Assembly (NCBI GenBank): GCA_030837085.1
Contig: JAUPLE010000969.1
Location: forward strand, 1 to 36,104
DNA: 36,104 nucleotides
From: Acidobacteriota bacterium
GTDB taxonomy: Bacteria; Acidobacteriota; Aminicenantia; UBA2199
Direction of reading: 5' to 3'
Translations under genes and position numbers: made by a program
The notes under the pieces: generated by a model
The model's database searches: none
Told to the model about the DNA's origin: nothing
What the model saw: the letters and a program-made list of their open reading frames with translations, nothing else
Part shown: in pieces, positions 9,801 through 29,500 of the stretch
Layout: every line of letters begins with the position of its first letter
Position numbering within the stretch: the first letter of the stretch is position 1

Positions 9801-12620
9801 CGTGTGATTTTGGTAAAAATCGGGACAGGCCAGATTGGATATAAAAAAGATAGTGAAAAACTATTTTTTATCAACCCAGAAGAGGAAAATGATTATAGAA
9901 ATTTATTCAAGGAACTCCGAGAGATGGGCAAACTTCCCGATCGGATTCTTCATTTTTGGAGTATTTCTTCCACAGCGCATCCCCTGGAATGCCCAGGAGA
10001 TATCGAGCGACTCCAGAATTTGGGATATTACAGTTTAACCGGTATTGCCAGGGCCATAGGAAATGAAGCCGCCGCTGATAAAATCCAGATAAAAGTGTTT
10101 ACTAACAATATATTTTCAGTAACAGGCGAGGAAGAATTGCATCCCTGGAATGCAACTGTTTTAGGACCTGTTAAAGTAATTCCTTTAGAGTATCCCAACA
10201 TCGATTGCTCCATTATTGACATCAGCCTCCCAACTCCAGGGATGGATAAAAAGGATAAAGAAGAAAAACTAATGCACTTGTTAGCAATTGAATCGGTTAG
10301 CAATGGCACTGATGTTGTTGTTGCCATACGCAGTGGTTTCCGCTGTCGGCAAATGTTTAAAACAATGCCTTTCGACATGAGTGAAATTGAAAGTACGCGG
10401 CCGCCGCGCCGATTACGTGAGCAGGGGGTTTACCTTATCACTGGCGGCCTGGGAGGTATAGGACTTACGTTGGCTGGACGCCTAGCAAAAACTGTTAAAG
10501 CCCGGCTGATATTAGTTGGACGTTCTCCGTTCCCTGCAAGGCAAGAATGGGGCAACCTATTAAAATTAAATTTGCAGAACTATGAAAATGAAAATAAAAC
10601 CGGACATAAAAAAGAAAAAAATATTGTACATAAAATCCGAAAATTATTGGAACTGGAGGAAAATGGGGCACAGATTTTAATAAAGGATGCAGATATTGCC
10701 AATTCCCAGCAGATGCGAGATATAATCGAACAGGCTGAGTGGCAATACGGCCCGGTAAATGGAATTATCCATTCCGCCGGCATTCCCGATGGGGCGATCA
10801 TTCAACGAAGTACCCGGGCCATGTCGGAATCAATATTTAACGCTAAAATAAAAGGAACTCAGGTTCTCGACTTGATATTCAAAGATAAATCCCTGGATTT
10901 TTTCATTATATGTTCTTCGTTAAATTCACTTATTCCAACTTTTGGCCAAGCAGCCTATTGTTCGGCCAATGCCTTTATTGATGCCTTTGCATATTATAAA
11001 AATACCCGGGATGGCATATTTACGGCATCTATTAATTGGGACGCCTGGGAAGAAATTGGAATGTCGTTTGAAGCAAGGCAGCGCTCGGAAATTTATCCAA
11101 ATTCCCGGACCGTTTCCACACCGCATCCTTTTGTTGAAAAATGTATCAGCGAAGATACCGCTGATGTATATATTGGGAACCTGGGCGTAAGGAAAAATTG
11201 GGCGCTGGATGAACACCGGATTTTCGATAAGGCTACGTTTCCCGGTACCGCTTACGTGGAAATGATAAGGGCAGTCTTCCAGGCACATGTGGGCGATGTT
11301 CCGATGGAAATCAAAGATATTTATTTCCTCCAGCCCCTGGTAATGGAAGACGATGAAGAACGGGAAGTACGAACCATTCTGAAAAAGAATGAGCAGGGCT
11401 TTGAATTTTTTATTACCAGTCGTGCACCGGCAGCTAAAGATAAATTATTAGAGCATGCCAGGGGAAAAATTGACTACTTACAAGACAATACTCAAACCCG
11501 GCATTCTCTCCATGAAATTGAAGTTTTATGCAGCGAAAAGGAAGTCAATCTTCCGCCAGGAATAGCAGATGAAGGAGAAAAGTATTTAAAATTCGGCCCC
11601 AGGTGGAATATTGGCAAGCAGGTGAAACAGGGGATAGGTCAGGCATTAATAGTACTGGAATTGCCGGGGGAATTTGGCGCTGATTTGAATACCTATAAAT
11701 TACACCCAGCGCTTCTGGATAATGCTCTTGCTGGAACATTCGGTGCCGGGTCATATTACCTCCCCTTTTCCTACAAAAAAGTAAAAATAAGGAAACCCTT
11801 TACGTCAAAAATATTCAGTTACATCAGGTTAAAGGAAAATAAAGAATCTCCGAAAGAATTTAAGCATTTTAGTGTCATCCTTATGGATGGAGAAGGCAAT
11901 GAATTGGTAAATATCAGTGAATATACGTTAATGCAAGTTCCCATTGAGAGAATTCAAATGCGTGATATTTCAGACTCATCATCTCCGATGCGTCCTACGG
12001 ATTTTGCGAATGAAAGGGAACCGGGTTTTGATCGGAAAGAAAATACAGAAATATCATATGGAATAAAACCGGCAGAAGGAGTGGAAATTTTTGAACGTAT
12101 TTTGGCGGAAACGTATCCTCATCCCCAGGTGGTCATATCAACCATCGATTTTGATGCCCGCGTAGATCATATGAAGAAATTAAACATCCTGGGGAGAAAC
12201 GAAACGGATGAAGAAAAAACGTTAACTAATATCCCACTTATTTCACAGCAACGCCCCGAGTTATCCACCCGTTATGTAGAACCGTCAACTGGTATGGAAA
12301 AAAAGATAGCCGATATATTTCAAAAATTCATGGGAATTAAAGAGATCGGTATTAATGATAATTTTTTTGAATTGGGGGCTAATTCTCTCATGATGGTCCA
12401 GTTAAATAGCCAACTGGAAAAAGCCATTGAAAAAGAAGTTTCCATTGTAACCATATACGCTCACCCCACCATAAAAGACTTGGCCCGATTCTTAAGTAAT
12501 GAAAAACAAAGTCCGGCTGATTCTGAAGAGGAAGTCGAATCGATGAAGCAGAAGATAGAAAAAGGAAAAAGTAAATTAGATCAAAGAAAGCAGCGAAATA
12601 AAGGTATGAGAAATGACTGA
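6894..12620 (+). CDS. Type I PKS module: KS-AT-KR[DH]KR'-ACP
   Basis: 1908 aa from ATG 6894. KS (from ~8) has the TACSTS Cys184, HGTGT His320 and NVGH His358, all intact. AT starts at FPGQG (~540) with active Ser634 in GHSIGEY and HAFH at 730-733, the pattern known for malonyl-CoA. A structural KR half (~940-1150) leads to the NADPH loop GGLGGIG (~1182), HSAGIPDG and catalytic Tyr1355 (AAYCSANAF). A DH-like domain follows (~1410-1685), then a short segment YGIKPAEGVEIF...PQVVIST (~1721-1760) that in gene 8 directly follows the KR. ACP Ser1831 lies in ELGANSL. The C-terminus is a very basic/charged helix, as in gene 2. Predicted role: add one C2 unit, reduce the ketone and possibly dehydrate it. 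The gene 2 T domain should feed it. There is 1 bp between the gene 2 stop and this start, and an 8 bp overlap with gene 4. Confidence 0.93.
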   Translation: MKETSLTGLEIAVIGMICRFPGANNIDEFWDNLKNGVESISFFSDEELIEVGIAPGLLKDPIYIKAKGIIDDKEALSFDSDFFDYYPKEAAILNPQVRLLHECAWEALEMAGYVPGYYNGLIGLYIGATNSTMWEMQTYLSASESDAPLDSLSIYALADKDFLSTRLSYKLNLKGPAVNMQTACSTSLVTIHNACRALLTGECDMALAGGATVNIPQKSGYIYTKEMIFSPDGHCRAFDAKAKGTVGGNGVGIVVLKRLNNAIADGDEIYALIKGSAINNDGNRKVGYTAPSVEGQMEVIKAAQQMAEVEFESITYIEAHGTGTPLGDPVEIEALKKAFNTGKKRFCAVGSVKTNVGHLDSAAGVAGFIKTVLALKNKQIPPSLHYETPNPKIDFDNSPFYVNATLQAWQNDVYPLRAGVSSFGIGGTNAHVILEEAPKNFNKTGSTPLRSNKLILVSAKSEPILNRMIRNLGQFFQKNPNINLDNVAYTLQVGRSSFKYRKMFVCSTLDEAVNILSAPDSDKIHSFYVKEEIRPVIFMFPGQGAQYVNMGLDIYHEELLFKEILDHCFDILNKRMGLNLKTILYPEEGENATVDIEAINRTEITQPLIFIIEYALARLLMKWGIKPHAMIGHSIGEYVAACLAGVFSLEDALEIVALRGRFMQQMPCGAMLGVQIPTDEINTFLTTEIELAAVNGALFCVVSGPTGAINQFKITMKEKGYKTTPLHTSHAFHSNMMEPILKDFAKELAKFALNKPGIPYISNLTGTWITIEDAVNPAYWSMHLRRTVKFSAGLNELLKVDNSIFIEVGPGTTLSTFVRHHPAKTNEHQSINLIRHPQENIPDARYLLHKLGQLWFYGKKIDWLGFYGEEKRNRIPLPTYPFQRRQYPFKAKSFQSILQANTDVSSIQKKDDISKWFYIPVWEKSIYSMPVVPVETSSVETALPLTFLVFMDIEGWCLPLVQQLSEKGHRVILVKIGTGQIGYKKDSEKLFFINPEEENDYRNLFKELREMGKLPDRILHFWSISSTAHPLECPGDIERLQNLGYYSLTGIARAIGNEAAADKIQIKVFTNNIFSVTGEEELHPWNATVLGPVKVIPLEYPNIDCSIIDISLPTPGMDKKDKEEKLMHLLAIESVSNGTDVVVAIRSGFRCRQMFKTMPFDMSEIESTRPPRRLREQGVYLITGGLGGIGLTLAGRLAKTVKARLILVGRSPFPARQEWGNLLKLNLQNYENENKTGHKKEKNIVHKIRKLLELEENGAQILIKDADIANSQQMRDIIEQAEWQYGPVNGIIHSAGIPDGAIIQRSTRAMSESIFNAKIKGTQVLDLIFKDKSLDFFIICSSLNSLIPTFGQAAYCSANAFIDAFAYYKNTRDGIFTASINWDAWEEIGMSFEARQRSEIYPNSRTVSTPHPFVEKCISEDTADVYIGNLGVRKNWALDEHRIFDKATFPGTAYVEMIRAVFQAHVGDVPMEIKDIYFLQPLVMEDDEEREVRTILKKNEQGFEFFITSRAPAAKDKLLEHARGKIDYLQDNTQTRHSLHEIEVLCSEKEVNLPPGIADEGEKYLKFGPRWNIGKQVKQGIGQALIVLELPGEFGADLNTYKLHPALLDNALAGTFGAGSYYLPFSYKKVKIRKPFTSKIFSYIRLKENKESPKEFKHFSVILMDGEGNELVNISEYTLMQVPIERIQMRDISDSSSPMRPTDFANEREPGFDRKENTEISYGIKPAEGVEIFERILAETYPHPQVVISTIDFDARVDHMKKLNILGRNETDEEKTLTNIPLISQQRPELSTRYVEPSTGMEKKIADIFQKFMGIKEIGINDNFFELGANSLMMVQLNSQLEKAIEKEVSIVTIYAHPTIKDLARFLSNEKQSPADSEEEVESMKQKIEKGKSKLDQRKQRNKGMRND
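11120..11945 (+). other. DH-like domain nested after the KR core
   Basis: Starts at HPFVEK and carries LDEHRIFDKATFPG with His1441, matching HxxxGxxxxP except that Gly is Asp. FGPRW stands where YGPxF is expected, and HPALLDNAL carries Asp1609 but Ala where the DxxxQ/H motif has Gln or His. The His/Asp dyad is present, so dehydration is possible but not assured. Canonical modules place DH before KR; here it splits the KR core from its usual C-terminal extension. Confidence 0.75.
12601..12604 (+). promoter_or_regulatory. Ribosome binding site for gene 4
   Basis: AAGG 8 nt before ATG 12613, located within the last codons of gene 3. The start and stop overlap as ATGACTGA, which fits translational coupling. 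Confidence 0.45.
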
Positions 12621-15600
12621 ACAAGATTTATATAATGGCCTGGAAATAGCGGTTATCGGCATGTCGGGGAGATTCCCCGGCGCAAGAAACCTGGTGGCCT
12701 TCTGGGAAAACCTGATCAACGGCGTGGAATCGATTACTTTTTTTTCTGAAAAAGAATTGATAGAGCTGGGTATTGACCCAGCGACAATAATAAATCCAAA
12801 TTTCGTTCGCACTCGGGGCGGTTTTATCAGCGATTGTGATTATTTCGATGCAGGTTTTTTCGGGTATACCGACGGTGAAGCAGAAGTAATGACCCCCCAG
12901 ACCCGTTTGTTTCATGAATGCAGTTGGGAAGCGTTGGAAAACGCTGGGTATGATCCATCGCTTTACAGCGGCTCCATTGGGATATATGCCGGGGGGCGAA
13001 ATAGTTTCGATTGGGAGGCGCTGACATGGCTTTCAGGAAAAGGTGCTCGGTTGGGGGGCGTATTGGCTTCAACCCTATGTGATAAAGATTCGATGACTTC
13101 CCGTGTATCTTATAACTTTAATCTCAGGGGGCCAAGTTTTGCATTAAATACCGCGTGTTCGACCGGGTTAGTAGCCATTCACCTTGCCTGTCAGGCATTG
13201 TTGAGCGGCGAATGTGATATGGCATTGGCCGGGGCATCCGCTATCACTGCCCATAAACCCATAGGATATTTTTATCATGATGGAGATATCATGTCCCCTG
13301 ACGGCCATACACGGGCGTTCGATGCCCGGGCTGCGGGATTAAACTACTCCGATGGAGTGGGCACAGTTTTATTAAAATCACTGGAAGAGGCCGTCGCTGG
13401 TGGAGATCATATATATGCAATTATCAAAGGTACTGCGATCAACAATGACGGCCATAACAAAGTTAATTATACGGCGCCTTCGGTAAAGGCCCAGGAAAAA
13501 GTCATCCGGGCCGCCCTTTGCATGGCAGGAATTAAAGCCGAGAGTGTCAGTTATATCGAAGCGCACGGCACGGCCACCAATGTCGGTGATCCCATTGAAG
13601 TCCAGGCATTAAAACAAGCCTTTGCTTCAGATGAAAAACATTTTTGTGCCATTGGCTCATTAAAAACCAATGTCGGTCATATGACAGAAGCAGCAGGGAT
13701 TGGGGGATTCATCAAAACGGTCCTGGCGTTAAAGCATCGGCTCATTCCCCCCAGCTTGCACTATGAAACCCCGAATCCCACTGCTGATTTTGAAAACAGT
13801 CCCTTTTACGTTTGTGCAAAATTAACAGAATGGAAACGTGGTCAATATCCACTGCGGGCAGGAGTCAGCTCATTTGCCCGCGGCGGCACCAATGCCCATA
13901 TTATTTTAGAAGAAGCGTCGGAAGAAAAAGTAAAAAATGAAAATGAAAAAAACACCACCCATGGGGAATACCGGTTGATTTTATTATCTGCCCGGACATC
14001 TTCAGCGCTGGAAAGAATGTCGGAGAATTTGGTCTCATATTTGCAGGAAAACCAGAGTATTGATATCGCCGATGCAGCCTATACATTACAAGTTGGAAGA
14101 AGAGCGTTTGAATTCAGGCGTAGATTAACGGTTTCCCATATCGATGAGATAATCGAATCATTGTTCAGGACTAATTCCCGGGAAGTCCGTTCAGGATATA
14201 CCATAGCCGAGGACAAACCAGTGGTATTCATGTTCCCGGGCCTGGGTTCACAATACATTGGCATGGGGGCAGGGCTTTACGAGGCTGAGCCTGTCTTCAG
14301 GGAAAAGATGAACCAGTGTTTTGAAATTTTAAAATCGCGGACAGGGTTTGATTGGCAAAGGGTATTGTTCCCCCATCCCAGTGAAATAAAAAATAACCTG
14401 CCAGATGAAACCGTTCAACCCCTCCTTTTCTCATACGAATATGCCTTAGCCCAGCTGCTGATGGCATGGGGAATAACGCCCTATATGCTGATCGGGTATA
14501 GTTTCGGTGAATATACAGCGGCTTGTTTATCAGGGGTACTCTCCCTGGAAGATGCATTAGAACTGATCGTATCCAGGGCACTGTTAATAAGCCGGGTACC
14601 CGGTGGGGCCATGTTAAGCGTACCGCTTCCCGTTAAAGAAGTGCAGCCTATTTTAACCAAAGGATTATCCATTGCCATTGACAATGGCCCTTCCTGTATC
14701 GTATCCGGTCCCGCGGCTGAAATCGAAAACTTCGGGGCGCAAATGAAAGAGATGAGACATATGTGTATGGGTCTTGATGCTATCCATGCCATCCATTCCA
14801 TGATGATGGACCCGGTGGTGGAAGAATTTAAAACGCAGGTGGGGAAATACATTTTACATGAACCCCAAATCCCATATATATCCAATGTAACCGGTAAACA
14901 GATAACAACGGAAGAAGCCATAGACCCTGGTTATTGGGCCCGGCATTTGCGGGAAACCGTGCGTTTTGCCGATGGCATCCATGAATTACTTCATGAAAAA
15001 AAAGCAATTTTCGTGGAAGTCGGACCGGGACGTGATCTCAGCACGTTAATGACTCGTTTTATCGATTTCCAGTCGGAACAAAAAGTCATTAACCTGGTGA
15101 GACCCCCAGAAAAAAATGTCCATGACCTCCGGTATTTATTGAATAAGATTGGTGATTTATGGTTGTATGGGAAAAAAATCGATTGGACCGGATTTTATGG
15201 AGCTGAAATACGGCAACGTGTTCCTTTGCCGACTTATCCGTTTCAAAGGAAACGTTATACCATCGAACCCCCGCGTGAAGGTATGTTAAGCGGTATTGGA
15301 ATGAATTTTGAAATCCCCCGTCAAGATATATTGGAGTCTAAAGTTGCTGTTGATGGCTCGTTGACACAACTACCCATGATGGCTTCATATAATGTGCGCA
15401 GCGAAATAGAACGAGTAATTGTGGGTATATGGCAGGAAATGCTGGGAGTGAATCAAATCGAGAGCGATGATGATTTCCTGGAATTAGGCGGGGATTCATT
15501 GAAAGCTATAACTGTATTATCACGTGTACATAAAATCTATAATACAATTATTCCATTGGCGCAATTTTTTAAAGAGCCCACTGTCAAAAAGCTGGCAGAA

Positions 15601-16986
15601 TATATTGAAAAGGTCGAAAAAAGTGCTTTTATGCCCATCCCTAGCGCTGAAACTAAAAACTATTATGTATTATCATCGATTCAAATGCGTCTATTCATTC
15701 TTCAGCAAATGGATCCGGACAGCGTCGGATACAATCTTCCCCAGGCGTATATCATGGAAGGTGACATTGACAGGCAAAAAATGGAAACGGTTTTTAAAAA
15801 GTTAATCGGGAGGCATGAAAGTCTAAGAACTTCCTTTGAGATAATTGAGAAAGAACCAATCCAGAGAATAAACAATGCGGAAGACCTGGATTTTGAGATC
15901 GAATTTGTTTCAGGTCCAGGGAATAAGGTAGATCAATTCATACAACCTTTTAATTTATCCCGAGCCCCATTAATACGGGCAAGATTAATCGAACAAGAAC
16001 CAAAAAAACATATCCTGATGGTAGATATGCATCATATTGTATCAGATGGCGTATCCAATGCCTTATTCATCCAGAATTTTGTCGAGGTATATGCCGGATT
16101 GGAATTGCCGCCATTAAAAATTCAGTATAAAGATTATTCAGAATGGTTACACAGCGCGGTGCAGATGGAAAGATTGAAGCAACAGGAAGCCTTTTGGCTG
16201 AAAGAATTGGCTGGGAAACTGCCTATTTTAAATTTACCAACGGATTTTTCCAGGACTTCGCCGCTAAATTTCGAAGGAAATCGCGTGTATTTTGATATCC
16301 CCCAGGAAAATACTGAGAAATTAAAGGAATTGGCGAAAAACGAAGAAGCCACATTGTACATGGTACTACTGTCCATATTTAATATACTGCTTTTCAAACT
16401 ATCTGCCCAAAACGAGATTATTATTGGTGTGGATACCGCCGGGAGAACGCATGCCGATTTCGAGCAGATCATCGGGGTTTTTATCAATACCCTGGTATTG
16501 CGGACATTTCCCGTGAGAGAAAAACCCTTTCGCAGGTTCCTTCAAGTAGTAAAAGCAAAAACTCTTGAAATTTTTGAAAACCAGGATTATCCCTTTGATC
16601 TCCTGGTGGATAAGCTTGAAAAAACAAGAACCCCTTTCCGCAACCCCATTTTCGATATCTTGTTTTCATATGAACAGTTTGAAGTCAAACCCCTGGAAAT
16701 ACCCGAAGCTCTCAGTCATTTGACAATAAGACCCTATGATGAAGGAACCGTCGCTTCGAAATTGGATATGAATGTTAAAGCCAGGGCAGGGGATGTCATC
16801 GAAATCATTATTGAATACAAAACCAAACTGTTCAAGGAAAGCACCATCCGGAGATATGCCGGGTATTTTAAAGAGATCGTCGATGCGGTGATTCTAGATT
16901 CGGAGATCATGCTGCAAGACATTAAAATCACCCATGATTTGTTACGAATAGACCGAGACATCGGCAAATTGGACCTGGAATTTTAA
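12613..16986 (+). CDS. Hybrid PKS-NRPS protein KS-AT-ACP-C
   Basis: 1457 aa. The KS has Cys182 in TACSTG (Ser replaced by Gly after the triad), His318 in HGTATNVGDP (normally HGTGTxLGDP) and NVGH His356. The AT starts at FPGLG (~541), with Ser630 in GYSFGEY (the usual GHSxG His is Tyr) and HAIH at 725-728 instead of HAFH, so the extender unit is uncertain. No KR, DH, ER or methyltransferase lies between the AT and the ACP (Ser962, LGGDSL), so the beta-keto group should remain. A full C domain follows (~1007-1450) with HHIVSDG (His1141, Asp1145), which would pass the polyketide chain to an amino acid. The protein ends KLDLEF just after DIKITHDLL, like genes 1 and 6. Its acceptor should be gene 6 (½C-T-C), although gene 5 lies between. 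The start overlaps gene 3 by 8 bp. Confidence 0.93.
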   Translation: MTEQDLYNGLEIAVIGMSGRFPGARNLVAFWENLINGVESITFFSEKELIELGIDPATIINPNFVRTRGGFISDCDYFDAGFFGYTDGEAEVMTPQTRLFHECSWEALENAGYDPSLYSGSIGIYAGGRNSFDWEALTWLSGKGARLGGVLASTLCDKDSMTSRVSYNFNLRGPSFALNTACSTGLVAIHLACQALLSGECDMALAGASAITAHKPIGYFYHDGDIMSPDGHTRAFDARAAGLNYSDGVGTVLLKSLEEAVAGGDHIYAIIKGTAINNDGHNKVNYTAPSVKAQEKVIRAALCMAGIKAESVSYIEAHGTATNVGDPIEVQALKQAFASDEKHFCAIGSLKTNVGHMTEAAGIGGFIKTVLALKHRLIPPSLHYETPNPTADFENSPFYVCAKLTEWKRGQYPLRAGVSSFARGGTNAHIILEEASEEKVKNENEKNTTHGEYRLILLSARTSSALERMSENLVSYLQENQSIDIADAAYTLQVGRRAFEFRRRLTVSHIDEIIESLFRTNSREVRSGYTIAEDKPVVFMFPGLGSQYIGMGAGLYEAEPVFREKMNQCFEILKSRTGFDWQRVLFPHPSEIKNNLPDETVQPLLFSYEYALAQLLMAWGITPYMLIGYSFGEYTAACLSGVLSLEDALELIVSRALLISRVPGGAMLSVPLPVKEVQPILTKGLSIAIDNGPSCIVSGPAAEIENFGAQMKEMRHMCMGLDAIHAIHSMMMDPVVEEFKTQVGKYILHEPQIPYISNVTGKQITTEEAIDPGYWARHLRETVRFADGIHELLHEKKAIFVEVGPGRDLSTLMTRFIDFQSEQKVINLVRPPEKNVHDLRYLLNKIGDLWLYGKKIDWTGFYGAEIRQRVPLPTYPFQRKRYTIEPPREGMLSGIGMNFEIPRQDILESKVAVDGSLTQLPMMASYNVRSEIERVIVGIWQEMLGVNQIESDDDFLELGGDSLKAITVLSRVHKIYNTIIPLAQFFKEPTVKKLAEYIEKVEKSAFMPIPSAETKNYYVLSSIQMRLFILQQMDPDSVGYNLPQAYIMEGDIDRQKMETVFKKLIGRHESLRTSFEIIEKEPIQRINNAEDLDFEIEFVSGPGNKVDQFIQPFNLSRAPLIRARLIEQEPKKHILMVDMHHIVSDGVSNALFIQNFVEVYAGLELPPLKIQYKDYSEWLHSAVQMERLKQQEAFWLKELAGKLPILNLPTDFSRTSPLNFEGNRVYFDIPQENTEKLKELAKNEEATLYMVLLSIFNILLFKLSAQNEIIIGVDTAGRTHADFEQIIGVFINTLVLRTFPVREKPFRRFLQVVKAKTLEIFENQDYPFDLLVDKLEKTRTPFRNPIFDILFSYEQFEVKPLEIPEALSHLTIRPYDEGTVASKLDMNVKARAGDVIEIIIEYKTKLFKESTIRRYAGYFKEIVDAVILDSEIMLQDIKITHDLLRIDRDIGKLDLEF

Positions 16987-17032: not shown

Positions 17033-17971
17033 ATGAGCAAAATGATATTTATGTTTCCCGGTGTGGGTTCTCACTATATAGGAATGGGAAAATTTTTTTA
17101 TGATAATTTTAAAATAGCCGGGGAAATCTTCGAGGAAGCAAGCGATGCGTTAAAGATAGATTTTGCCCGGTTGTGTTTTTCGGAAGAAAGTAAGAAGGAG
17201 TTGAACACGCTGGAGAATGCACAGGTGGCATTGGTGACCGTAAGTACCGCAGCGTACCGCGTGTACATGGAGGAAGTGGGCAGCGAACCCCTTTACTGCC
17301 TGGGGCACAGCCTGGGGGAGTATTCCGCGTTGTGCGCTGCCGGCGTCATGCGGTTCACCGATGCATTGGAAATCGTTCGCAGCCGGGGAGTCATTCTAAA
17401 CAGGGCGGCGTCTTCCATGAACGGCATGATGGCCTGGGTGATTAACCTGGATTATCGAATCACTGAAAGAATATGCGCAGACCATGCCGGGCAGGGATGC
17501 GAAGTTTTCGTATCCGCCTACGATTCGCAAGTGCAGTCAACCATCTCCGGTTTTCGGGACACAGTAATGCGTGTAGGAAGAAAGCTGGAAAAGGAAGGTG
17601 CCATTGTCTATCCGCTGCAGTTGAGTGGGCCGTTTCACTGTCCCATGATGAACGAAGCTGCTTTGGTCATGGAGAATATACTCCGACAGTATATATTCTT
17701 TGATGCGCGTTTCCCGGTCGTTGCCAATCAAAACGCACAGTGTTACGACGGGATTGAAAGTATTGCCCGTAATTTATCTCTCCAGTTGGTTCGACCAATC
17801 CGTTGGCGAGATTCCATTCAGTACCTGGTAGACCAGGGAATTAAAATCGCAATTGAAATGGGTCCGGATAAGGTATTAAAACATCTAATGAAAAATAACA
17901 CAGATTCCATTCGCGTTTATTCCTTCGCTGTCGGAACCGACCTGGAATTAGTTAAGCATCATTTGTTGTAA
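17033..17971 (+). CDS. Stand-alone acyltransferase (FabD/trans-AT family)
   Basis: 312 aa, a normal length for a discrete malonyl-CoA:ACP transacylase-type enzyme. The fold is covered end to end: FPGVGSHYIGMG at the N-terminus, nucleophile Ser93 in GHSLGEYSALCAAGV, and catalytic His202 in SGPFHCPMM, then RPIRWRDSI and IEMGPDKVL. Family knowledge: discrete ATs load malonyl units onto AT-less carrier domains, while a related branch (acyl hydrolases of trans-AT systems) removes stalled acyl chains; GPFH-type motifs occur among both, so I cannot separate them. The PKS modules here already have their own AT, which makes proofreading or service to another carrier (for example the A-less T of gene 6) worth considering. 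Much of the gene is visibly GC-richer than its neighbours (39 of 60 G/C at 17281-17340), which may mark a separate origin. Confidence 0.88.
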   Translation: MSKMIFMFPGVGSHYIGMGKFFYDNFKIAGEIFEEASDALKIDFARLCFSEESKKELNTLENAQVALVTVSTAAYRVYMEEVGSEPLYCLGHSLGEYSALCAAGVMRFTDALEIVRSRGVILNRAASSMNGMMAWVINLDYRITERICADHAGQGCEVFVSAYDSQVQSTISGFRDTVMRVGRKLEKEGAIVYPLQLSGPFHCPMMNEAALVMENILRQYIFFDARFPVVANQNAQCYDGIESIARNLSLQLVRPIRWRDSIQYLVDQGIKIAIEMGPDKVLKHLMKNNTDSIRVYSFAVGTDLELVKHHLL

Positions 17972-18100: not shown

Positions 18101-20566
18101 ATGTACGACCATCAGGCAAAAGACAGAAAAATAATTGCAGCCCAGGAAAATATCCGGGAAAAAGAATTTTGGACGGGGTTGGTGAAAGGAGAGCCGTTGA
18201 TAAGTTGTTTTCCTTTTGATTATAGAAAAATAACGGGGAAAGAGTATCCTACCGATAGTTTAGATATACTTCCCTTCACCTTTACTCCCGCAGTGGCGGC
18301 AGTATTGGTGAAAACCAGTAAAGATTCCCACCACCGGCTGCATATCGTGTTGACAGCTGCGGCGGCGATATTAATGAATAAATATTCTCGCTGGCCAAAC
18401 CAGGATATCCTGGTCATTGTGCCAATTTATCGTCCCCAACTGGATGGGGAGTTTATCAATACCGTCCTACCGTTACGAATCCGGCAGGCTTCTGCTATGA
18501 CATTTATGGATATATTAAAAGAGGTAAGCCGCGCCCTTATTGCCGCAGTGGAACATGAGAATTACCCTGTGGAACTGTTATTTGACCGTTTACCGTTAGA
18601 TATACACTTAAGCGGGGCAGGGGCAACTTTACCGGGAACGGGATTAATATTGGAGAATATCCACAATAAAGAACATATTCGGCATTTAAAGCTTCCCCTG
18701 GTTTTTTCCTTCCGCCGGGAAGATGCCAGGATTAGTGGCGAATTGGAATACAATTCGCATCTATGTAGGAAAGAACTGGCCGAACAGTTAGTTTCGCACC
18801 TGGGCTGGATAGTGGAGGGGATGATTTCTGACCTGGAGGCACCGGTCTCCTCACTTGAGATATTGTCTGAGGAAGAGAGAAAACGTTTATGGGAAGGTTT
18901 CTCTGGGATTGCAGAAGAAAAAGCCGCCGCGGTCGAACCAATGACTTCTTTTGACGAGAAATTACAGCGCATATGGGGGGAGGTGTTAGATGTAGAGATG
19001 AGCGACATCGGCGCAGAAGCCAACTTTTTTGAATTGAACGGTAGCTCCTTGAGAACATTAATGTTGATATCTCGTATTTACAAAGAATTTGAAATCCGTA
19101 TTACCCTTTCGGAAATTTTTAATCTTCCCACCTTCAGGAGACAGGCCGGGCACATCAAGAAAGCGTTGAAACAAACCTATCTCCCCATAGAACCGGTGGA
19201 AATGAGAGAATATTATCCTTTATCCTCTTTACAGAAAAGACTGTATTTCATTCAACAAGTCAATCCTGACAGCATTAGTTACAATGTCCCCTCGGTAGAC
19301 TTGTTTGAAGAGGAATTGGATAAGGATAATTTAAGAAGGACTTTCTGGGAATTAATCCGGCGGCATGAAAGTTTCAGGACCTCTTTCGAATTAGTTGATG
19401 AAGTGCCGGTGCAGAGAATATACCGCCCTGAGGAGCTTGAATTTGATATCCATTATCACATCGGCCACACAAAAAATGAGATGGAAAACATTATTGCAGC
19501 CTTTTTGAAGCCTTTTCACTTAAGTAAAGCACCGCTGTTGCGGGTTGGAGTGATTCACAATGAAAATAAGAATTACATAATGTTGGATACCCATCACATT
19601 GTGTTGGATCTGGTCTCCAACCTGTTATTCAAAAGGGAGTTCAGAAGAATTTATAAAGGGAATTCATTACCGCCAGTCAAGCTTCAATACAAAGATTTTT
19701 CCCAGTGGCAGAACAGTGAGACTCAAACCGGTATGCGCAGGGAGCAGGAAATCTATTGGCTGAAGGTATTAGAAGGAAATATTCCCATTCTTCATATTCC
19801 CACGGATTACTCGAGACCGGAAAAGCGTAACTTTGCAGGCCGATGGAAAGAATTTGACCTTCCCCCACAGCATATAGAGACGTTAAATCGACTGGCAATA
19901 GATGAAAGCGTTACTCCATACATGATTTTTCTGGCAATATATAATATTATGCTGGCAAAGATTTCCGGCCAGGAAGATATTATTGTCGGCACCGCAATGG
20001 TGGGGAGAAATCACCCGGATTTACATGAAATCATCGGGATGTTTGTGAATGTCCTGGCATTAAGGAATTTTCCCTCCGGGGAGAAAACCTTTCTCGATTT
20101 TCTTCGTAGTGTCAAAAAAAATACATTGAGTGCCTTTGATAACCAGGATTATCATTTTGAAGAGTTGGTAGATCATCTGCAAATAAAGCGGGATATAAAC
20201 CGAAATCCACTGTTTGATGTCATGTTTAACCAGGGAGACCTGGGCATTGGTTCAGGAAAAAATGAGCCGGGAGAAATTCCCCTGCCAATGGAGAATCCGG
20301 TTCAGGAAAGATACGAAATTACCACCTCCAAATTTGATCTTACTTTGTTTTATTTATCAGGAAGTCAAAATTTTGTATTTGAGTATTCCACTGAGTTGTT
20401 CGAGGAAAAATCCATAGAAGAATTTATTAAATACTTCAAAGAGATTACCGCTACGGTAATACAAAACACTTCCATTCTATTGAAGGATATTGTTATTTCT
20501 CATAATTTATGTGAATTTATTTTCGATGGAAAGGAAAATCGAATGGAATTTGAATTTGAATTTTAA
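18101..20566 (+). CDS. A-less NRPS module ½C-T-C
   Basis: 821 aa. Residues ~20-255 are an orphan C-terminal C-lobe (KEFWTGLVKGE, VIVPIYRPQ, INTVLPLR, HENYPVELL). After the usual inter-domain phrase LEILSEEERKRLW the sequence goes straight to a T domain (~285-355; FFELNGSSL, phosphopantetheine Ser316), with no adenylation domain. A full-length C domain follows (~365-815). Its active-site motif is HHIVLDL: His499 and Asp503 are kept, but the final Gly of HHxxxDG is Leu. The protein ends EFEFEF after DIVISHNLC. The T domain must therefore be loaded in trans, receive the chain by transfer, or be silent. It lies directly after the free acyltransferase gene and 24 bp before gene 7. There is no sign of a recent deletion scar: the linker is smooth and in frame. 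Confidence 0.92.
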   Translation: MYDHQAKDRKIIAAQENIREKEFWTGLVKGEPLISCFPFDYRKITGKEYPTDSLDILPFTFTPAVAAVLVKTSKDSHHRLHIVLTAAAAILMNKYSRWPNQDILVIVPIYRPQLDGEFINTVLPLRIRQASAMTFMDILKEVSRALIAAVEHENYPVELLFDRLPLDIHLSGAGATLPGTGLILENIHNKEHIRHLKLPLVFSFRREDARISGELEYNSHLCRKELAEQLVSHLGWIVEGMISDLEAPVSSLEILSEEERKRLWEGFSGIAEEKAAAVEPMTSFDEKLQRIWGEVLDVEMSDIGAEANFFELNGSSLRTLMLISRIYKEFEIRITLSEIFNLPTFRRQAGHIKKALKQTYLPIEPVEMREYYPLSSLQKRLYFIQQVNPDSISYNVPSVDLFEEELDKDNLRRTFWELIRRHESFRTSFELVDEVPVQRIYRPEELEFDIHYHIGHTKNEMENIIAAFLKPFHLSKAPLLRVGVIHNENKNYIMLDTHHIVLDLVSNLLFKREFRRIYKGNSLPPVKLQYKDFSQWQNSETQTGMRREQEIYWLKVLEGNIPILHIPTDYSRPEKRNFAGRWKEFDLPPQHIETLNRLAIDESVTPYMIFLAIYNIMLAKISGQEDIIVGTAMVGRNHPDLHEIIGMFVNVLALRNFPSGEKTFLDFLRSVKKNTLSAFDNQDYHFEELVDHLQIKRDINRNPLFDVMFNQGDLGIGSGKNEPGEIPLPMENPVQERYEITTSKFDLTLFYLSGSQNFVFEYSTELFEEKSIEEFIKYFKEITATVIQNTSILLKDIVISHNLCEFIFDGKENRMEFEFEF

Positions 20567-20590: not shown

Positions 20591-23500
20591 ATGAGGATAG
20601 ATAAGAAAAAATTAAAAAAGCTGATCATCTCTGCCCAGCAAAGAAAAAAGGAGAAAGAGTATTGGATAGAGAAATTGGGCGGGGAGTGGAAGAAAAGCAT
20701 TATCCCTTATGACTATCCCCGGCATTTTTCCAGGGAGTGGTGTTTAAAATCGAGCGAATTTAAATTTGCAGAGAGGATAACTGCACAATTGTTAAAAATG
20801 AGCAGTGGTTCCGAATACGCATTGAATGTGATTTTTCATGCGGCACTTGTTGTTTTGTTGAGCCGGTATAATAACAGCCAGGACATTATCGTGGGGATGC
20901 CTATTTATAAACAAGAACATACTGGAGATTATATTAACGCAGTGCTAGCTTTGAGAAATAGATTAACTGAGCGGATGACCTTTAAAGATTTGCTGCTGCA
21001 GGTGAAGCAGAACGTCATGGAAGCGTTTGAGAATTGCAATTATCCTCTTCAATTATTGGTGGAGCACTTAAATATTCCTTATGGGCAAGACAGCGATTTT
21101 CCTTTGTTTGATGTGGCCCTATTAATTGAGAATATCCAGGAGAAAGAGCTTCTCCACACGATGGAATGCAGTATGGTTTTTTCTTTTTCAAGAGACCGGC
21201 AATCCCTGCAAGGAGTAGTGGAATATAATACTTCCCGGTATTGCAGCGATTCGGTGGGGAGGATTATCAGTCATTTTTCCATGGTTTTGCAAGAATTGCT
21301 TTTTAATGTGGATCAGTCAGTGAACGGGTTTGATATTTTATCCTCCAGGGAGAAACACCGGATTCTATATGAGTTTAATGATACGGAAGCGTATTATCCC
21401 AAGGATAAGACCGTTCATGAATTATTTGAAGAACAGGTGGATAAGACATCGGATCAAATTGCCGTTGTTTCCCGCCACGAAGAGCATGAAGGACACGAAA
21501 AGGGAAATTATCAGATTGCAATCACATACAAAGAATTAAATCATCATTCCAATCTTTTTGCTTGCACATTAAGAGAAAAAGGAGTTATGTCCGATACGAT
21601 CTTGGCGATCAGTCTCGGACGTTCGCTTGAAATGATAATCGGGATATTGGGCATATTGAAATCAGGCGGAGCGTATCTACCTATTGACCCCGATTACCCG
21701 GAAGAAAGGATAGGTTATATGTTGGCCGATAGCAATGCAAAAATTTTAATAACTAAATCCGAAATTCGAAATCCAAAATTCGATACAAATCCCAATGACC
21801 AAAAAATAAATGTGATCGTTTTGGATTTTGAACATTTGGATTTTAATTTTTTAATAGGGCATTCGCGACCACTCTCCGGTGGACTTTCGGGCTTCGAATA
21901 TCGTGCTTCGGGTTTTAATTCTTCAAGTCTCGCTTACATCATTTACACCTCCGGCACCACGGGCCAACCGAAAGGATCGCTGATCGAACATCGGAATGTT
22001 GTCCGGCTGGTGCTTAGCGATAAATTTCAATTCGATTTTTCAGACTGCGATGTTTGGACCCTGTTTCATTCGTTTTGTTTCGATTTTTCCGTATGGGAGA
22101 TGTACGGTGCATTGCTGTATGGAGGGAAGTTGATTATAGTGCCCAAAGTGGTGGCCATGGATACGGCTGAGTTCCTGGGACTCTTAAATAGAGAGAACGT
22201 TACCGTATTAAACCAGACCCCCTCGGCTTTTTATAATTTGATCGATGAAGTTTTAAACCCCCACCGGCAGAGGAAAAATTTATATATGAAATATGTCATT
22301 TTTGGCGGAGAAGCATTGAATCCGTTAAAACTGAAAGATTGGCTGGGAAAGTATCCCCAAACCAGGTTTATCAACATGTTCGGCATAACAGAAACCACCG
22401 TACATGTGACATATAAAGAGATAACCGAAAAGGATATTGAATTAAACGTCAGCAACATCGGTAAGCCGATCCCGACGTTAAGCGCCTATATATTGGATAG
22501 GTATTTAAGACCGGTTCCTTTAGGAGTGACGGGAGAGATATGCGTTGGAGGCGACGGGGTTGGTAGGGGATATCTAAACCGGGTAGAGTTAACGAAAGAA
22601 AAATTTGTAGAAAGCCCATATAATCCAGGCGGACGATTGTATCGATCTGGGGATACGGGGCGATTCCTGGAAAATGGAGATATGGAATATTCAGGTCGCA
22701 TTGATCACCAGGTAAAAATCAGGGGATTCAGGATCGAATTGGGAGAAATAGAGAATCGATTGTTAAAGTATGATGGAATAAAAGATGCAGTGGTACTTGC
22801 CGAAGAAACACCGGATGAGAAATATCTATGCGCTTATATCGTTGCCGATAAGGGATTTACATTAACAGAGTTGAGAACACATTTATCCGGTAAATTGCCC
22901 GATTATATGATTCCTTCCTATTTTGTGCGAATTGAGAAAGTACCGTTAACTCCTAACGGTAAGGTGGACCGGAGAGCGTTTCCGAAACCGGAGTTGAAAG
23001 TCGGCGAAAATTATATTGCCCCAAAGAATGAGATTGAAACGAAATTGGTAGAGTTGTGGGCGGAAATTTTAGGTAGAGACAAATTGCATAAGCCTCAGTT
23101 GCAAACATCGATAGGCATCCATGATAATTTCTTCGAATTGGGAGGGCATTCGCTAAATGCTACCATTCTTGTATCGAAGATACATAAGTTATATGATGTG
23201 ATAGTTCCGTTGACGGAAATTTTTAAGACGCCGAGAATTAAGGAATTGGCGAAATATATAAAAGAAAAGAGTAAAGAGTTCCATATATCCATCGAGCCCG
23301 CGGAAGAGAAAGAATATTATGAACTATCCCCAGCCCAGAAGAGATTATATATTTTGCAGCAATTAGTGACGGATAATACCAGTTACAATATGCCTCTTGT
23401 TATGCCCCTTGCGGAAAGTGTCGAAAAAGAAAAACTGGAATCGGTATTTAAAAAACTAATTGAAAGACATGAGAGTTTAAGAACGTCGTTTATAACAGTA

Positions 23501-26500
23501 AACGAAGAGCCTTTTCAGAGGATACACCGGGAGGTAGATTTCCCTATCGGTTTTTATGAAATAAAGGAAGAAGCAGAAGTAGTTCCACTTATTTCCGGTT
23601 TTACAAAGCCATTCGATTTGGGCTTAGCGCCTCTTCTGAGAGTGAACTTGATCGTAGTGGGATCATCCCGCTGGGTTCTATTTATAGACATGCATCACAT
23701 CGTCACTGACGGGACGTCGCAGGGCATATTGGAAAAGGAGTTCCTGGGGTTACAGGCAGAAGAAGAGTTGCATCCTCTGCGTCTCCAGTATAAAGATTAT
23801 TCGGAATGGTATAACAAGGCGCTTCGGCAGGAAGCGATAAAACAACAGGAATCCTATTGGCTGAAAGAATTTCCCGATGAACTTCCCGTGCTGGATCTTC
23901 CCACCGATTACCCGAGGCCATCGATACAGAGTGTTGAGGGGAATGTGGTGAGTTTTAGTTTCACTGTACGGGAAACAAACGTTTTAAAAGCAATCGCAAA
24001 AGAGAACGAAGCCACCCCGTATATGGCTTTACTGGCAATATTCAATATATTATTGGCGAAACTCAGCAGGCAGGAAGCTATTATAATAGGGACAGCCATC
24101 GCCGCCCGGCGTCATGCCGACTTGTTGAATGTTATCGGCATGCTGGTCAATACACTTGCCATGAGGAACTATCCATCGGGAGATAAAGCGTTTAAAGAGT
24201 TTTTACGGGAAGTGCAAGTGCGGACATTGGATGCCTACGAGAACCAGGAATATCCGTTTGAAGTTTTGGTGGATAAAATAAAAGTCAACCGGGATGTCGG
24301 GCGAAATCCTGTTTTTGATATTATGTTCAATTTGTTGAACCAGGAGGACTACAAAGTGGAGGTGCCCGGGCAAAATGATCAGGTTCCCTACCTGCACAAA
24401 AAAGGAACCTCTAAATTCGATATGAATTTAACGGCGGTGGAGATAGGAGAGAGACTTTTCTTTACACTTGAATATAGTACCCACTTATTTAAACCGGTGA
24501 GAATTGAACGGATAATCGGATATTATAAGAATATATTGGAGGTGTTGTCGCGTGATACGGGGTTAAAGATAGCGGAAATAGAGATAATGGGCAAAGAGGA
24601 ACAGGAAGCGGTATTGAAACTATCGAGAGGAATGGCAGATGATTATGAAGGAATGACGACAGTGCACCGGTTGTTTGAAGAGCAGGCAGCGAGAACGCCG
24701 GACAATATTGCCGTTATCGGCCAAACCGTAAGGACAAAACATTTACGATTTTTGGAGAATAAAAATGCATCGCCCGCACCCATCATACAATTATCATATC
24801 GGGAGTTGAATGAGATGTCCAATCAATCGGCTTATCGATTAAGAGAGAAAGGAGTTGGTTCGGACAGCGCTGTAGGGTTAATGGTGGAACGATCGGTGGA
24901 GATGATAATCGGGGTGTTGGGAATAATGAAAGCCGGAGGGGCATATTTACCGATCGATTCGGAGCTCCCCGGGGAGAGAAAGAGATACATGATTGAGGAT
25001 GGAGAAGTCCGGTGCCTGGTAGTAAGTGATGATACCGAAGATATTGGCGATGAAATTATCAATCGATTAGAGGTAATAGACCTGAGGCAGGAAAATATTT
25101 ACAGAAGAGATAACAGTAACCTGGAATATATCGGCAACGGTTCTGACCTGGTGTACGTGATATATACGTCGGGTTCGACAGGAAAACCCAAGGGAGTGAT
25201 GGTAGAGCACCGCAATTTATTAAATTTATTAAAGTTTCAATTTAAGTATACCAACATCGATTGCAGCCGAATTTTACAATTTTCCACAATAAGTTTTGAC
25301 GCCTCATTTCATGAGATATTTTCAGTGTTTTTATCCGGGGGGCAGCTCTACCTGGTAAATAAAGAAATTCGGACCAATATACCGGAGTTATTTAGACTTA
25401 TTGAAATGAATGTGATAACGACGGTATTTTTACCGATTTCCTTTTTGAGAGTGATTTTTAAAGAAGAGGAATATATAAAACGGTTACCCCGGAGTATCCG
25501 TCATATTCAGACAGCAGGGGACCAGGTGGTAATAAGTAATAATTTTAGAAAATATTTAAGAGAGAGGAAAGTTTACTTGCACAATCATTATGGGCCATCG
25601 GAAACCCATGTAGTGACGACATTGACCATATACCCGGAGGGAGATATAACGGAATTGCCGTCGATCGGGAAACCGGTGATAAATACGGGAATATATATCG
25701 TGGATAAATGGGGACATTTCTTGCCGCAGGGAGTAGCAGGAGAAATCTGGATAGGAGGAGTACAGGTTGGAAGGGGTTATTTAAATCGCCCGGAATTAAC
25801 CGCGGAGAAATTTATTATAATTCATCATCATTCATCATTCACCATCCATCATCCGATTCTATACCGCACCGGCGACCTCGCCCGACTTTTATCGGATGGG
25901 AATATCGAATTTTTAGGAAGAATCGATCACCAGATAAAGATCAGGGGATTTCGTGTTGAACTGGGAGAGATAGAAAGTCGGTTATTGAATTACCCGGGGA
26001 TAAAGGAAGTCGTTGCGTTGGTCCGAGAAGAAGGGAGCGGGGATAAATATATCTGTGCTTATGCCGTTTCCGATAGAGAATATGAAATAGCCGGGCTAAG
26101 GGAATTCCTGTCGAAGAAATTGCCGGATTATATGATTCCTTCCTATTTTGTGCGACTTGAGAAAATACCTTTAACTCACAACGGTAAGGTAAACCGGAAA
26201 GCATTACCCAAACCGGAGATAAACGTTGGCGAAAGTTATACTGGTCCGCGGAATGAAATAGAAAAGAAATTGGTAGAGTTGTGGGCGGAGATTTTAAGTA
26301 GAGATGGATTGCATGGGTCTCAACTGCAAACATCGATAGGAATCGATGATAATTTTTTCCAGTTGGGCGGCCATTCGCTAAAAGCCACCATATTGGCTTC
26401 CAGGGTACATAAAGAATTGAATGTAAACTTTCCTTTGGCGGAACTCTTCAAAACTCCCACGATACGGGGTTTGTCCGAATACATAAGAGGAAGGGGGGAA

Positions 26501-29500
26501 GAGATTTATGAATCAATAATGCCTGCGGAAGAAAAAGAGTATTATGTATTATCCTTCGCCCAGCAGCGAATGTATATTTTACAACAAATAGATTTGAATA
26601 ATACTGCCTACAATATGCCGGGAATTATTCTACTGTCTGAAGAAGTTGATACTGAAAAATTGGAAGAGTCCTTTAAAAAATTAATAAAGCGCCATGACAG
26701 TTTAAGAACATCTTTTCATATGATTGGAGATCAGCCGGTACAGAAGGTTCACGAGGAAGTGGACTTTAAAATCGAAAAATATAAAGAGTCCGATGTCCAT
26801 CGATTCGTTCGGGCATTTGATTTATCCTGCATGCCTCTACTGCGGGTGGGAGAGTTAAAAACCATGGAAGGTAGGAATTACCTGGTGGTGGACATGCATC
26901 ATATCATATCCGACGGTATTTCCGGCCAGGTCTTGAGAGAAGATTTTATGGCGCTCTATGAAGGAAAAGAACTGCTGCCATTACGAATCCAGTATAAAGA
27001 TTTTGCCCAATGGCAAAAAAGCCCGAAGGAGGTTGAAAGGCTTCACCGGCAGATGTTGTATTGGTTGAAAGAGTTTGAAGGAGAGATACCGCTATTAGAA
27101 ACTCCTTTGGATTATCCCAGGCCGCTGAGCCAGAGTTTTGAAGGAAAAAGTATCGATTTCGAGATATCAACTGAAGAAACCCGGTCGTTAAACGAGATGG
27201 CATTACAAGGGGGGGCCACGCTGTTCATGGTATTGGTGGCTGCCGTTAATATATTATTATCCAAACTCAGCGGGCAGGAAGAAATAATCATTGGCACCCC
27301 TATTGCCGGCAGGAGACATCCTGATTTAGAAAAAATAATCGGTATGTTTATCAACACCCTTGTCTTAAAAAACTATCCCATCGGGGATCGAACGTTTAAT
27401 GAATTCCTGGAAGAAGTAAAAGAACGGGTATTGCTGGTTTTTGAAAACCAGGAGTTCCCCTTCGAAGGGCTTGTGGATAAGTTGTCACTGAAGAGGGATG
27501 TGGGGCATAACCCGCTATTTGATGTCATGTTTGCTATGCAAAACATGAATACCGTTTCAACCGATCCGGGTGACGGGACCCCATCTGAAACAGGTCCGTC
27601 CGTTCAGCCTGCTTTTCCAAAGGAATATGAAAATATAATCCAGGCAGCGAAATTCGATTTGACATTCACAGCAGTGGAGAGAGGACAAAAGACGTTTTTT
27701 TCAATACAATATTGTACAAAGTTATTTAAAAAAGTAACCATTGAGCGATTCATCATTTATTTCAAGAAAATTGTATCGATTGCAATAAAAGAGCCGGGTA
27801 TAAAAATAACTGACATTGAAATCATATCGGAAGAAGAAAAGAAGCGGATATTATTCGATTTTAATGATACCGCAGCAGAATATCTGCAAGATAAAACCAT
27901 CGATGAATTATTTGAAGAGCAGGTAGAAAAGTCGCCGGATCGTATTGCCGTTATCGGTTCAACCATAGAGACGCTACGCGCAACGTCTATACAAATAACC
28001 TATCGTCAATTAAATAATCAATCCAACCGATTGGCCCTTCAATTACAAGAGAAAGGGATTCCCCCCGATTCCATCGTGGGCATTATGGTGGAGCGATCTG
28101 TAGAGATGATTATCGGAATTTTAGGCATATTAAAATCCGGTGGCGTCTATTTGCCCATCGATCCCGATCTCCCGGAAGAACGCATCGATTATATGCTAAA
28201 GGACAGCGGAGCGAAACTTTTGGTTAATGAAAAGTTTTTCGGGGGGTCCGTACCGGCGGGGGCGGTTTTTCAAAAAAACTCCCCTGGCGACAATAAACTC
28301 GCTTACCTCATCTACACCTCCGGGTCTACCGGCCGACCCAAAGGAGTGGCGGTGGAACATTCATCCGCGATAAACATATTGACAGCCATGCATCGGGAAT
28401 ATCCCCTGAAGGTTATGAATACTTACCTGCTAAAAACATCTTACATGTTTGATGTATCTGTAACGGAGTTATTCGGCTGGTTCATGGAGGGCGGTAAATT
28501 AGCCATATTGGAAAAAGGTGGTGAAAAAGACCCGACAGTTATTTTGAATTCAGTAGAGAGGCAATTTGTCACCCATATTAATTTTGTTCCCGCCATGTTT
28601 AAGGTTTTTGTGGATGAATTGGAAGTAAGCCCCCGGAATATAAGAAAATTATCCGGTCTTAAATATATTTTTTTAGCCGGAGAAATTCTTTTACCGGGAT
28701 TGGTTAATAAATTCAAGCAGTTAAATAACGCTATTGCCCTGGAAAATATCTATGGACCCACTGAAGCCACGGTTTATTCCTCGCGGTATTCACTGGCCAG
28801 TGGTGAGTTTCAGGGAAATATCCCGATCGGGAAACCCATGCAGAATGTGGTGCTTTTTATCCTGGGCAGCGATGGGAATATGAAACCCATCGGAGTACCG
28901 GGCGAATTATACATCGGTGGGGCGGGCCTGGCCCGCGGGTATTTAAATCACCCAGAATTAACCGCTGAAAAATTTGAACAGGATTTATGGGATTATCAGG
29001 ATGACCAGGATGAGAAAAAAAAGGAAAATTATCAAAAGTTTTTTAGGGGGTCAAGGGGGGCGATTTTACAAAAAAGCCCCCCTAGCCGGCGAAGACTTTA
29101 CAAAACCGGGGACCTGGCCCGTTGGGTGAATGATGGAAATATAGAATTTTTAGGGCGCATCGACCACCAGGTGAAAATAAGGGGTTTCAGGATAGAGTTG
29201 GGTGAAATAGAGAATCGATTGAGAGGGTATGCCGATATCCGGGAAGCAATAGTAATATCGAAAGAAGAGGATGAGCACAGGGATAATTATTTGCATGCAT
29301 TTATCGTTTCCGAGAGTGAGATTTCGGTTTCGGAACTAAGAGAATATTTGTCGAAATATCTGCCCGATTATATGGTTCCGTCATATTTTAGCAAAATAGA
29401 AAAGATGCCTATAACTCCTAGCGGCAAAATCGACCGAAAATCATTCCATTCATTCAATGCATTCTTGCAGCCAGGCGCGGAATTTGCAGAACCCGCAGAT

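Follow-up and report, generated by a model that had tools for sequence, protein, structure and literature searches.

Because the window analysed here (36,104 bases) coincides with one entire contig, C312, the gene cluster it carries is cut at both ends; the draft genome has 6.9 Mb in 1045 contigs and a completeness of 87%. All window genes of the cluster lie on the plus strand, in order from gene 1 to gene 7, with the subunit of interest, P0001, between genes 5 and 6. Gene 1 comprises the end of a T domain and a C domain with the tail ..DGFGF. Gene 2 (1514-6892) is organised as ½C-A-T with two inserts, ½C denoting the C-lobe of a condensation domain, and gene 3 as KS-AT-KR-DH-T. The upstream subunit, gene 4 (12613-16986), is KS-AT-T-C and finishes in a 17-residue tail, ..GKLDLEF, of the class called 1 below; gene 5 (17033-17971) encodes a free-standing FabD-like acyltransferase. 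P0001 itself (18101-20566) was identified as an A-less ½C-T-C subunit of 821 residues from its open reading frame and translation, Pfam, and a domain map made with our own HMMs. The downstream subunit, gene 6 (20591-29824), is ½C-A-T-C-A-T-C-A-T, and its first A domain presumably activates Thr, as read by hand from the specificity code. Gene 7 (29802-36104) is KS-AT-KR-T-C-A and is cut inside its A domain. The cis AT domains of genes 4 and 7 have GYSFGE in place of GHSxGE and odd specificity motifs (HAIH and VAMH), and on these motifs they perhaps use unusual extender units; GYSxGE is also present in several other ATs of the set.

The reading frame of P0001 begins with ATG preceded by AGGA. 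Pfam placed Condensation in two stretches (the best at residues 369-798) and PP-binding at residues 286-352 (6e-13), and gave no AMP-binding match in the protein. A C-lobe fragment was mapped at about residues 5-268 (18113-18904); this ½C has a shortened floor and latch and is proposed to be an N-terminal docking domain. Within it, the Arg79 codon (18335-18337) marks the residue that varies with upstream tail class. The site of the missing A domain, F267/S268 (18899-18904), appears as a single alignment gap and is uncertain by a few residues. The T domain (18947-19156) is of the PCP type, having the phosphopantetheine serine, Ser316, in the motif ELNGSSL and a place in the PCP clade of the tree. 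It is followed by a complete condensation domain (19199-20500), which was recognised by Pfam and lies in a clade of protein-terminal C domains, and by the C-terminal tail ..RMEFEFEF (20501-20563), a proposed docking tail according to the tail census. P0001 thus keeps a carrier, a condensation domain, an N-terminal ½C, and a C-terminal F-x-F tail. The preliminary description had proposed a ½C-T-C protein with Ser316, a C domain bearing HHIVLDL, and no A domain in cis, and the recounted frame, Pfam matches, and motifs confirmed it.

The condensation domain is full-length and has the HHxxxD motif, beginning at His498, with the Gly after the Asp replaced by Leu. This Gly was absent from 31 of the 170 C domains whose motif could be read (in 7 others it could not) and from 17 of the 67 C domains that come after a T and end their frame; Leu stood there in 2 of the 170. 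HHIVLDL was therefore ruled out as the mark of a dead C domain, Gly-less motifs being common. Neither domain scored as degenerate, the T domain ranking 33rd from the bottom of 203 and the C domain 70th of 188. Compared with solved structures, the condensation domain was C-like rather than E-like (398 bits with TycC PCP-C; 60 and 50 bits with the PCP-E of TycA and GrsA), and the TycC5-6 PCP-C didomain (PDB 2jgp) was the best match of the T-C half in both sequence and fold. TycC5-6 comes from an ordinary assembly line whose modules have A domains. For P0001, AlphaFold gave a model with a mean pLDDT of 75.

Among proteins starting with ½C, the next domain by our own profile labels was A in 99 and T in one, which is P0001. 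This count combines 59+1 proteins of the first set with 40+0 of a later set and takes in only visible next domains, 14 more ½C-starting proteins being cut off before theirs. The ½C-T architecture of P0001 is not due to chance. No orthologue was found in searches with the full protein, the junction, and a pattern. The full protein matched in 9 of 60 genomes (its own genome and relatives), and among the best approximately 16 candidates per genome only its own match started before residue 199. A query spanning the ½C-T junction was covered whole by no other match among those listed for seven genomes (at most the best 150 of up to 577 candidates per genome). Partial matches such as those on C672, C434, and C247 proved on domain maps to be ½C-A genes, and a C-T-C class was reached through matches that combine the T side with a piece of a C-lobe. 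A pattern scan of genome contigs returned 14 stretches, one of which encoded a relative, an ordinary multimodular protein of Paenibacillus.

The origin of the subunit was approached through trees of its domains. In the midpoint-rooted tree of 201 T domains, the P0001 carrier fell in a clade of 141 (support 0.825) that holds 119 of the 160 carriers following an A domain, all 7 of those following a full C, 14 of the 15 at frame starts, and none of the 18 PKS carriers (defined by a KS or AT in front); the carriers closest to it were those of A-T-C units. In the tree of 192 C domains, the P0001 domain lay in a clade of 16 (support 0.789), all 16 of them last in their frames, and the sister domain came from a ½C-A-T-C protein (support 0.871). 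When P0001 was aligned with stretches of the types ½C-A-T-C and C-A-T-C, the A domain was absent as one gap, running from the C-A linker to the A-T linker. On account of the two trees and this single gap, P0001 is best read as a former ½C-A-T-C elongation subunit from which the whole A domain was lost. Its terminal branches are long (rank 195 of 201 for T and 170 of 192 for C), which would fit relaxed constraint or a new partner alike. These genomes have other A-less T domains, seven of them after a full C, and descent of P0001 from the C-T-C class of A-less proteins was not supported by the trees. Apart from P0001, an A-less class seen at loci L093, L094, L095, L096, and L099 has a full C at the start followed by T without A; four of the five (not L093) carry the motif HHILYDG, and at L099 a gene that looks amidinotransferase-like by eye lies directly upstream of the A-less protein.

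The ½C of P0001, a C-lobe without the crossover loops, is a conserved, docking-like element common to about a hundred subunits. Neither this nor the misfit of the upstream tail described below figured in the preliminary description. In the 58 ½C segments of good length, the floor segment measured 19 residues in 55, compared with 24 residues in 147 of 167 C domains, and the latch segment 25 residues in 53; at least 154 of the 167 C domains have a latch of 38 residues or longer. Judged from these sequences, the ½C segments are one uniform kind and not assorted wrecks. A ½C profile scored 318-373 bits on nine segments of the own genome and at most 145 bits outside the family (297 genomes of the phylum, best nine candidates per genome); the five outside loci that were read were ordinary full C domains. 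Among 78 C-ending proteins with a tail of 12-45 residues, F-x-F was present in 54 and a wider motif in 67; neither occurred in 26 T-ending proteins with tails of 60 residues or less. Of the frames ending in AT and in A, 3 of 6 and 1 of 14 had the wider motif, and none (0/6 and 0/14) had an F-x-F end. On joined contigs, 50 of 72 C-ending proteins had a ½C-starting gene next; the next gene started with A for 7, with a partial C for 3, with AT for 2, and with C for 1, and for 9 it was not visible. The gene after 22 T-ending proteins started with KS 14 times, with C 6 times, once each with a partial C and with A, and never with ½C. The F-x-F tail of a C-ending protein and the ½C of the next gene are thus apparently a new docking pair. 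In the AlphaFold model, the tail of P0001 had a pLDDT below 50 and was disordered, showing no cis docking on the protein's own ½C; that model was of one chain, with an alignment of only nine rows, and weighs little either way.

Known docking systems resemble this pair in part. In the accessible portions of two papers (PMC9113145, PMC12402864), the β-hairpin domain with its SLiM tail and the COM domains likewise match a short C-terminal peptide to the next N-terminus, and charge matching was found in the β-hairpin class. The ½C differs from both in being a C-lobe of ~265 residues rather than a small domain and in sitting between C and A or T, and the docking classes that those portions name for NRPSs include no ½C/tail pair. 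The N-terminus of P0001 is accordingly not a β-hairpin docking domain, its C-lobe of about 265 residues contrasting with a small αββαα fold, nor is its C-terminal junction of the COM type, which lies between E and C domains, as the terminal domain of P0001 is C-like and not E-like and the next gene begins with ½C-A. The nearest case in the literature is ThdA of thermoactinoamide, which also has a truncated C domain at its N-terminus; there it precedes an A domain in a starter module, whereas the ½C of P0001 stands mid-cluster without an A. In the available part of that report, the truncated domain was called probably inactive and a possible influence on A-domain selectivity was discussed (PMC7253712). 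We recognised no description of such a tail/½C docking pair in the consulted portions of the literature on truncated or partial C domains and on NRPS docking, C-A included. Novelty lies more in this apparent docking system at large than in the A-less subunit itself.

Pairing each tail with the ½C of the next gene suggested a two-class code. Tails of 18 residues or less were assigned to class 1 and those of 19 or more to class 2, a cut chosen after the tails had been seen, and the Arg79 column was the best of many ½C columns tried. From 50 discovery pairs, 5 without a tail motif were dropped, and dereplication at 75% left 42 of the remaining 45. The check set consisted of 38 later-fetched pairs from the same or related genomes, 33 of which were kept; the five dropped for a tail without the motif have Arg or Lys. 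The window pair of gene 4 and P0001 was set by hand, passing over gene 5. In the dereplicated motif-bearing pairs, tail class predicted ½C relatedness, nearest neighbours agreeing in 38 of 42 (25 expected, p 0.0005); with a motif-based class the agreement was 34 of 42 (p 0.004), and at 50% dereplication p was 0.09 for the length class and 0.03 for the motif class. Outside the window, the dereplicated pairs had a basic residue in 25 of 25 cases opposite class 2 tails, and a non-basic residue faced class 1 tails in 10 of 14 (Fisher 1.6e-6). The 33 later-fetched pairs comprised 17 basic/class 2, 0 basic/class 1, 10 non-basic/class 1, and 6 non-basic/class 2 (Fisher 9e-5). All 78 pairs, not dereplicated, gave 46, 1, 20, and 11 in the same order. 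Outside the window, the partner of a basic residue was a class 2 tail in 45 of 45 cases, and that of a class 1 tail was a non-basic residue in 20 of 20. The sole violation among the 78 is the class 1 tail of gene 4 facing Arg79 of P0001. By the code the gene 4 tail fits gene 6, whose ½C has Ala at this position. The tail of P0001 itself (21 residues) is class 2 by length and class 1-like by motif, and it faces the same Ala. Tail charge was a less sharp correlate, with values of -2 or below for 21 of the 27 tails that face a basic residue and for 4 of the other 15 (p 0.003).

In one tree the tail class changed at least 11 times, and the residue switched as predicted in 8 of 10 neighbour pairs of different class, which are not independent because one class 1 gene occurs in four of them and another in two. 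Since class changes recur together with residue switching, shared ancestry alone offers no easy explanation, although linked inheritance of adjacent genes could contribute to the signal. We put at about even odds the view that the ½C is a new docking-domain class derived from a C-lobe, which would read the F-x-F tail by a two-class code, pairing longer, mostly acidic tails with Arg or Lys and short hydrophobic tails with a neutral residue. The code would then route gene 4 past P0001 to the Thr module, and the loss of the A domain together with the mismatch would make P0001 a switchable or bypassed module. If the code is real, subunit order, skipping, and partner choice would become predictable in an NRPS-rich lineage, and the pair could serve as a plug for C/A junctions in engineering.

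Gene 5 is FabD-like with the active-site motif GHSLGE and scored below the cut-off of NCBIfam TIGR00128 (248.4 compared with 260.9 bits), whereas a separate FabD of the same genome, on C702, scored above it. It shares 56-57% identity with the free ATs of three other contigs, compared with 32% for that FabD, and belongs to a sub-branch of free ATs of its own. On C526 the gene after the gene 5 relative is a KS-T-C gene in which no AT was recognised; such a gene also occurs on G001 C173, and on that contig and on C42 the gene 5 relative adjoins an A-domain gene. The A-domain gene on C42 of the own genome (L113, G000; 7206-10199) is a complete free-standing A domain of 551 residues next to a free AT of 446 residues. 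Its pocket is presumably Ser-like, as read by hand from the specificity code, and the combination may resemble the aminomalonyl pathway of zwittermicin.

Trans loading of an A-less subunit is known from capreomycin, where, in the accessible part of the source, the A-less protein CmnI is loaded by CmnA-A1 and proof of such loading for A-less bacterial modules is described as still limited (PMC12400406). Like P0001, CmnI and VioI (of viomycin) are separate A-less proteins that stand mid-line with T followed by C. Where P0001 has a ½C, CmnI has an N-terminal extension predicted to be disordered, and the source presents the CmnI line as made of NRPS modules (PMC12400406), unlike the mixed peptide/polyketide line considered here. 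P0001 has the CmnI type of architecture, a separate T-C protein without an A domain, with a ½C added; it lies outside the CmnI/VioI sequence group, which spans 52.5-99.5% identity according to the same part of the source (PMC12400406), matching CmnI (9uay) only distantly (E 2.2e-19, 72 bits), with 28 PDB sequences scoring higher. By analogy, P0001 would probably work like CmnI, as an A-less, trans-loaded module.

Because the subunit has lost its loader and kept its carrier, its C domain, and apparently both docking ends, either its building block comes from elsewhere or the subunit is bypassed. Our best single reading, to which we assign a probability of about 0.4, is that the Ser316 carrier is loaded in trans by the A domain of another protein. 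An A domain already used in the line, or a free-standing one, would charge Ser316; the C domain of gene 4 would join the polyketide chain to the residue held on the P0001 carrier, and the C domain of P0001 would transfer the extended chain to gene 6 at its Thr module, as gene order and docking suggest for the latter two steps. This is favoured because the motifs are kept, both apparent docking ends are present, and the frame is open, and also by the CmnI precedent and the other A-less T domains of these genomes. Counting against it are the window's lack of a free A gene or of an A domain without its own T, the carrier motif LNGSS, which differs from LGGHS, the long terminal branches, the lack of an orthologue in the searches above, and the gene 4 tail, the sole one of 21 class 1 tails with a basic ½C residue opposite. 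The gene 4 tail misfits the P0001 ½C but fits gene 6, and bypass is therefore a real option, though we rate it somewhat less probable than trans loading; gene 4 would dock directly on gene 6, and P0001 would be skipped, optional, or recruited by another acidic-tailed protein. This is favoured by the docking mismatch, by the later-fetched pairs, which keep the code on their own, and by the long branch of the P0001 carrier. However, the gene order speaks for the use of P0001, its frame is open and its motifs are kept despite the long branches, its own tail stands ahead of an intact ½C, and a single residue need not decide docking. The preliminary description held that P0001 decides what joins the two halves of the product, which is not safe, as gene 4 may pass its chain directly to the Thr module. 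P0001 comes with a proposed addressing system whose rule would be readable from sequence, and if the code is real the subunit offers a direct test of trans loading against bypass.

The remaining readings are distinctly less probable. The T and C domains are intact without a loader in cis, as expected if the carrier simply took the gene 4 polyketide, with no new residue, and the C domain handed the chain to Thr. Gene 4, however, ends in a C domain, and established C-domain chemistry requires an amine or similar acceptor, which makes this reading improbable. The adjacent free AT of gene 5, FabD-like and with GHSLGE, might put a malonyl-type group on the carrier, but acyl loading is disfavoured because the P0001 carrier lies outside the part of the midpoint-rooted tree that holds the PKS carriers (18 of 18 outside its clade). 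The AT has relatives on three other contigs, with AT-less KS-T-C genes on C526 and G001 C173, which also speaks against P0001 as its target, and we regard this loading as still less probable. Least probable of all, and very unlikely, is loss of the A domain in assembly or annotation. The draft is fragmented, as its 1045 contigs attest, but the junction DNA (18700-19200) matched nowhere else in the own genome, which makes mis-assembly through a repeat unlikely, and the reading frame runs open through the junction. Of the options first proposed for the carrier, trans loading thus stays the best single reading and skipping has gained independent support from the docking code, while acyl loading by gene 5 has lost ground to the T tree. 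As for a free-standing A gene, in the window neither one nor an A domain without its own T was found (gene 7 being cut inside its A), and the own genome has at least one, the 551-residue protein on C42, not linked to the contig of P0001.

Two inserts were seen in the A domain of gene 2. One combines radical SAM and B12-binding regions, its best NCBIfam relative being a PhpK-type P-methyltransferase (E 1e-26, below cut-off); the other, before the end of the A domain, is like an N-acetyl sugar amidotransferase (TIGR03573, E 2e-20, below cut-off). Among the papers listed for such inserts there was no clear precedent. In relatives, A domains are often interrupted by inserts of some 460-520 residues at comparable points of the profile (L053, L054, L056, L059, L067, and L102). 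On contig C94 of G001 (in the joined stretch from base 15000), a C-ending gene and a ½C-starting gene stand 1.7 kb apart, and between them lies a 566-residue gene at 23809-25506 that by eye resembles B12-radical SAM proteins. Gaps of similar size lie between many other C-ending and ½C-starting pairs.
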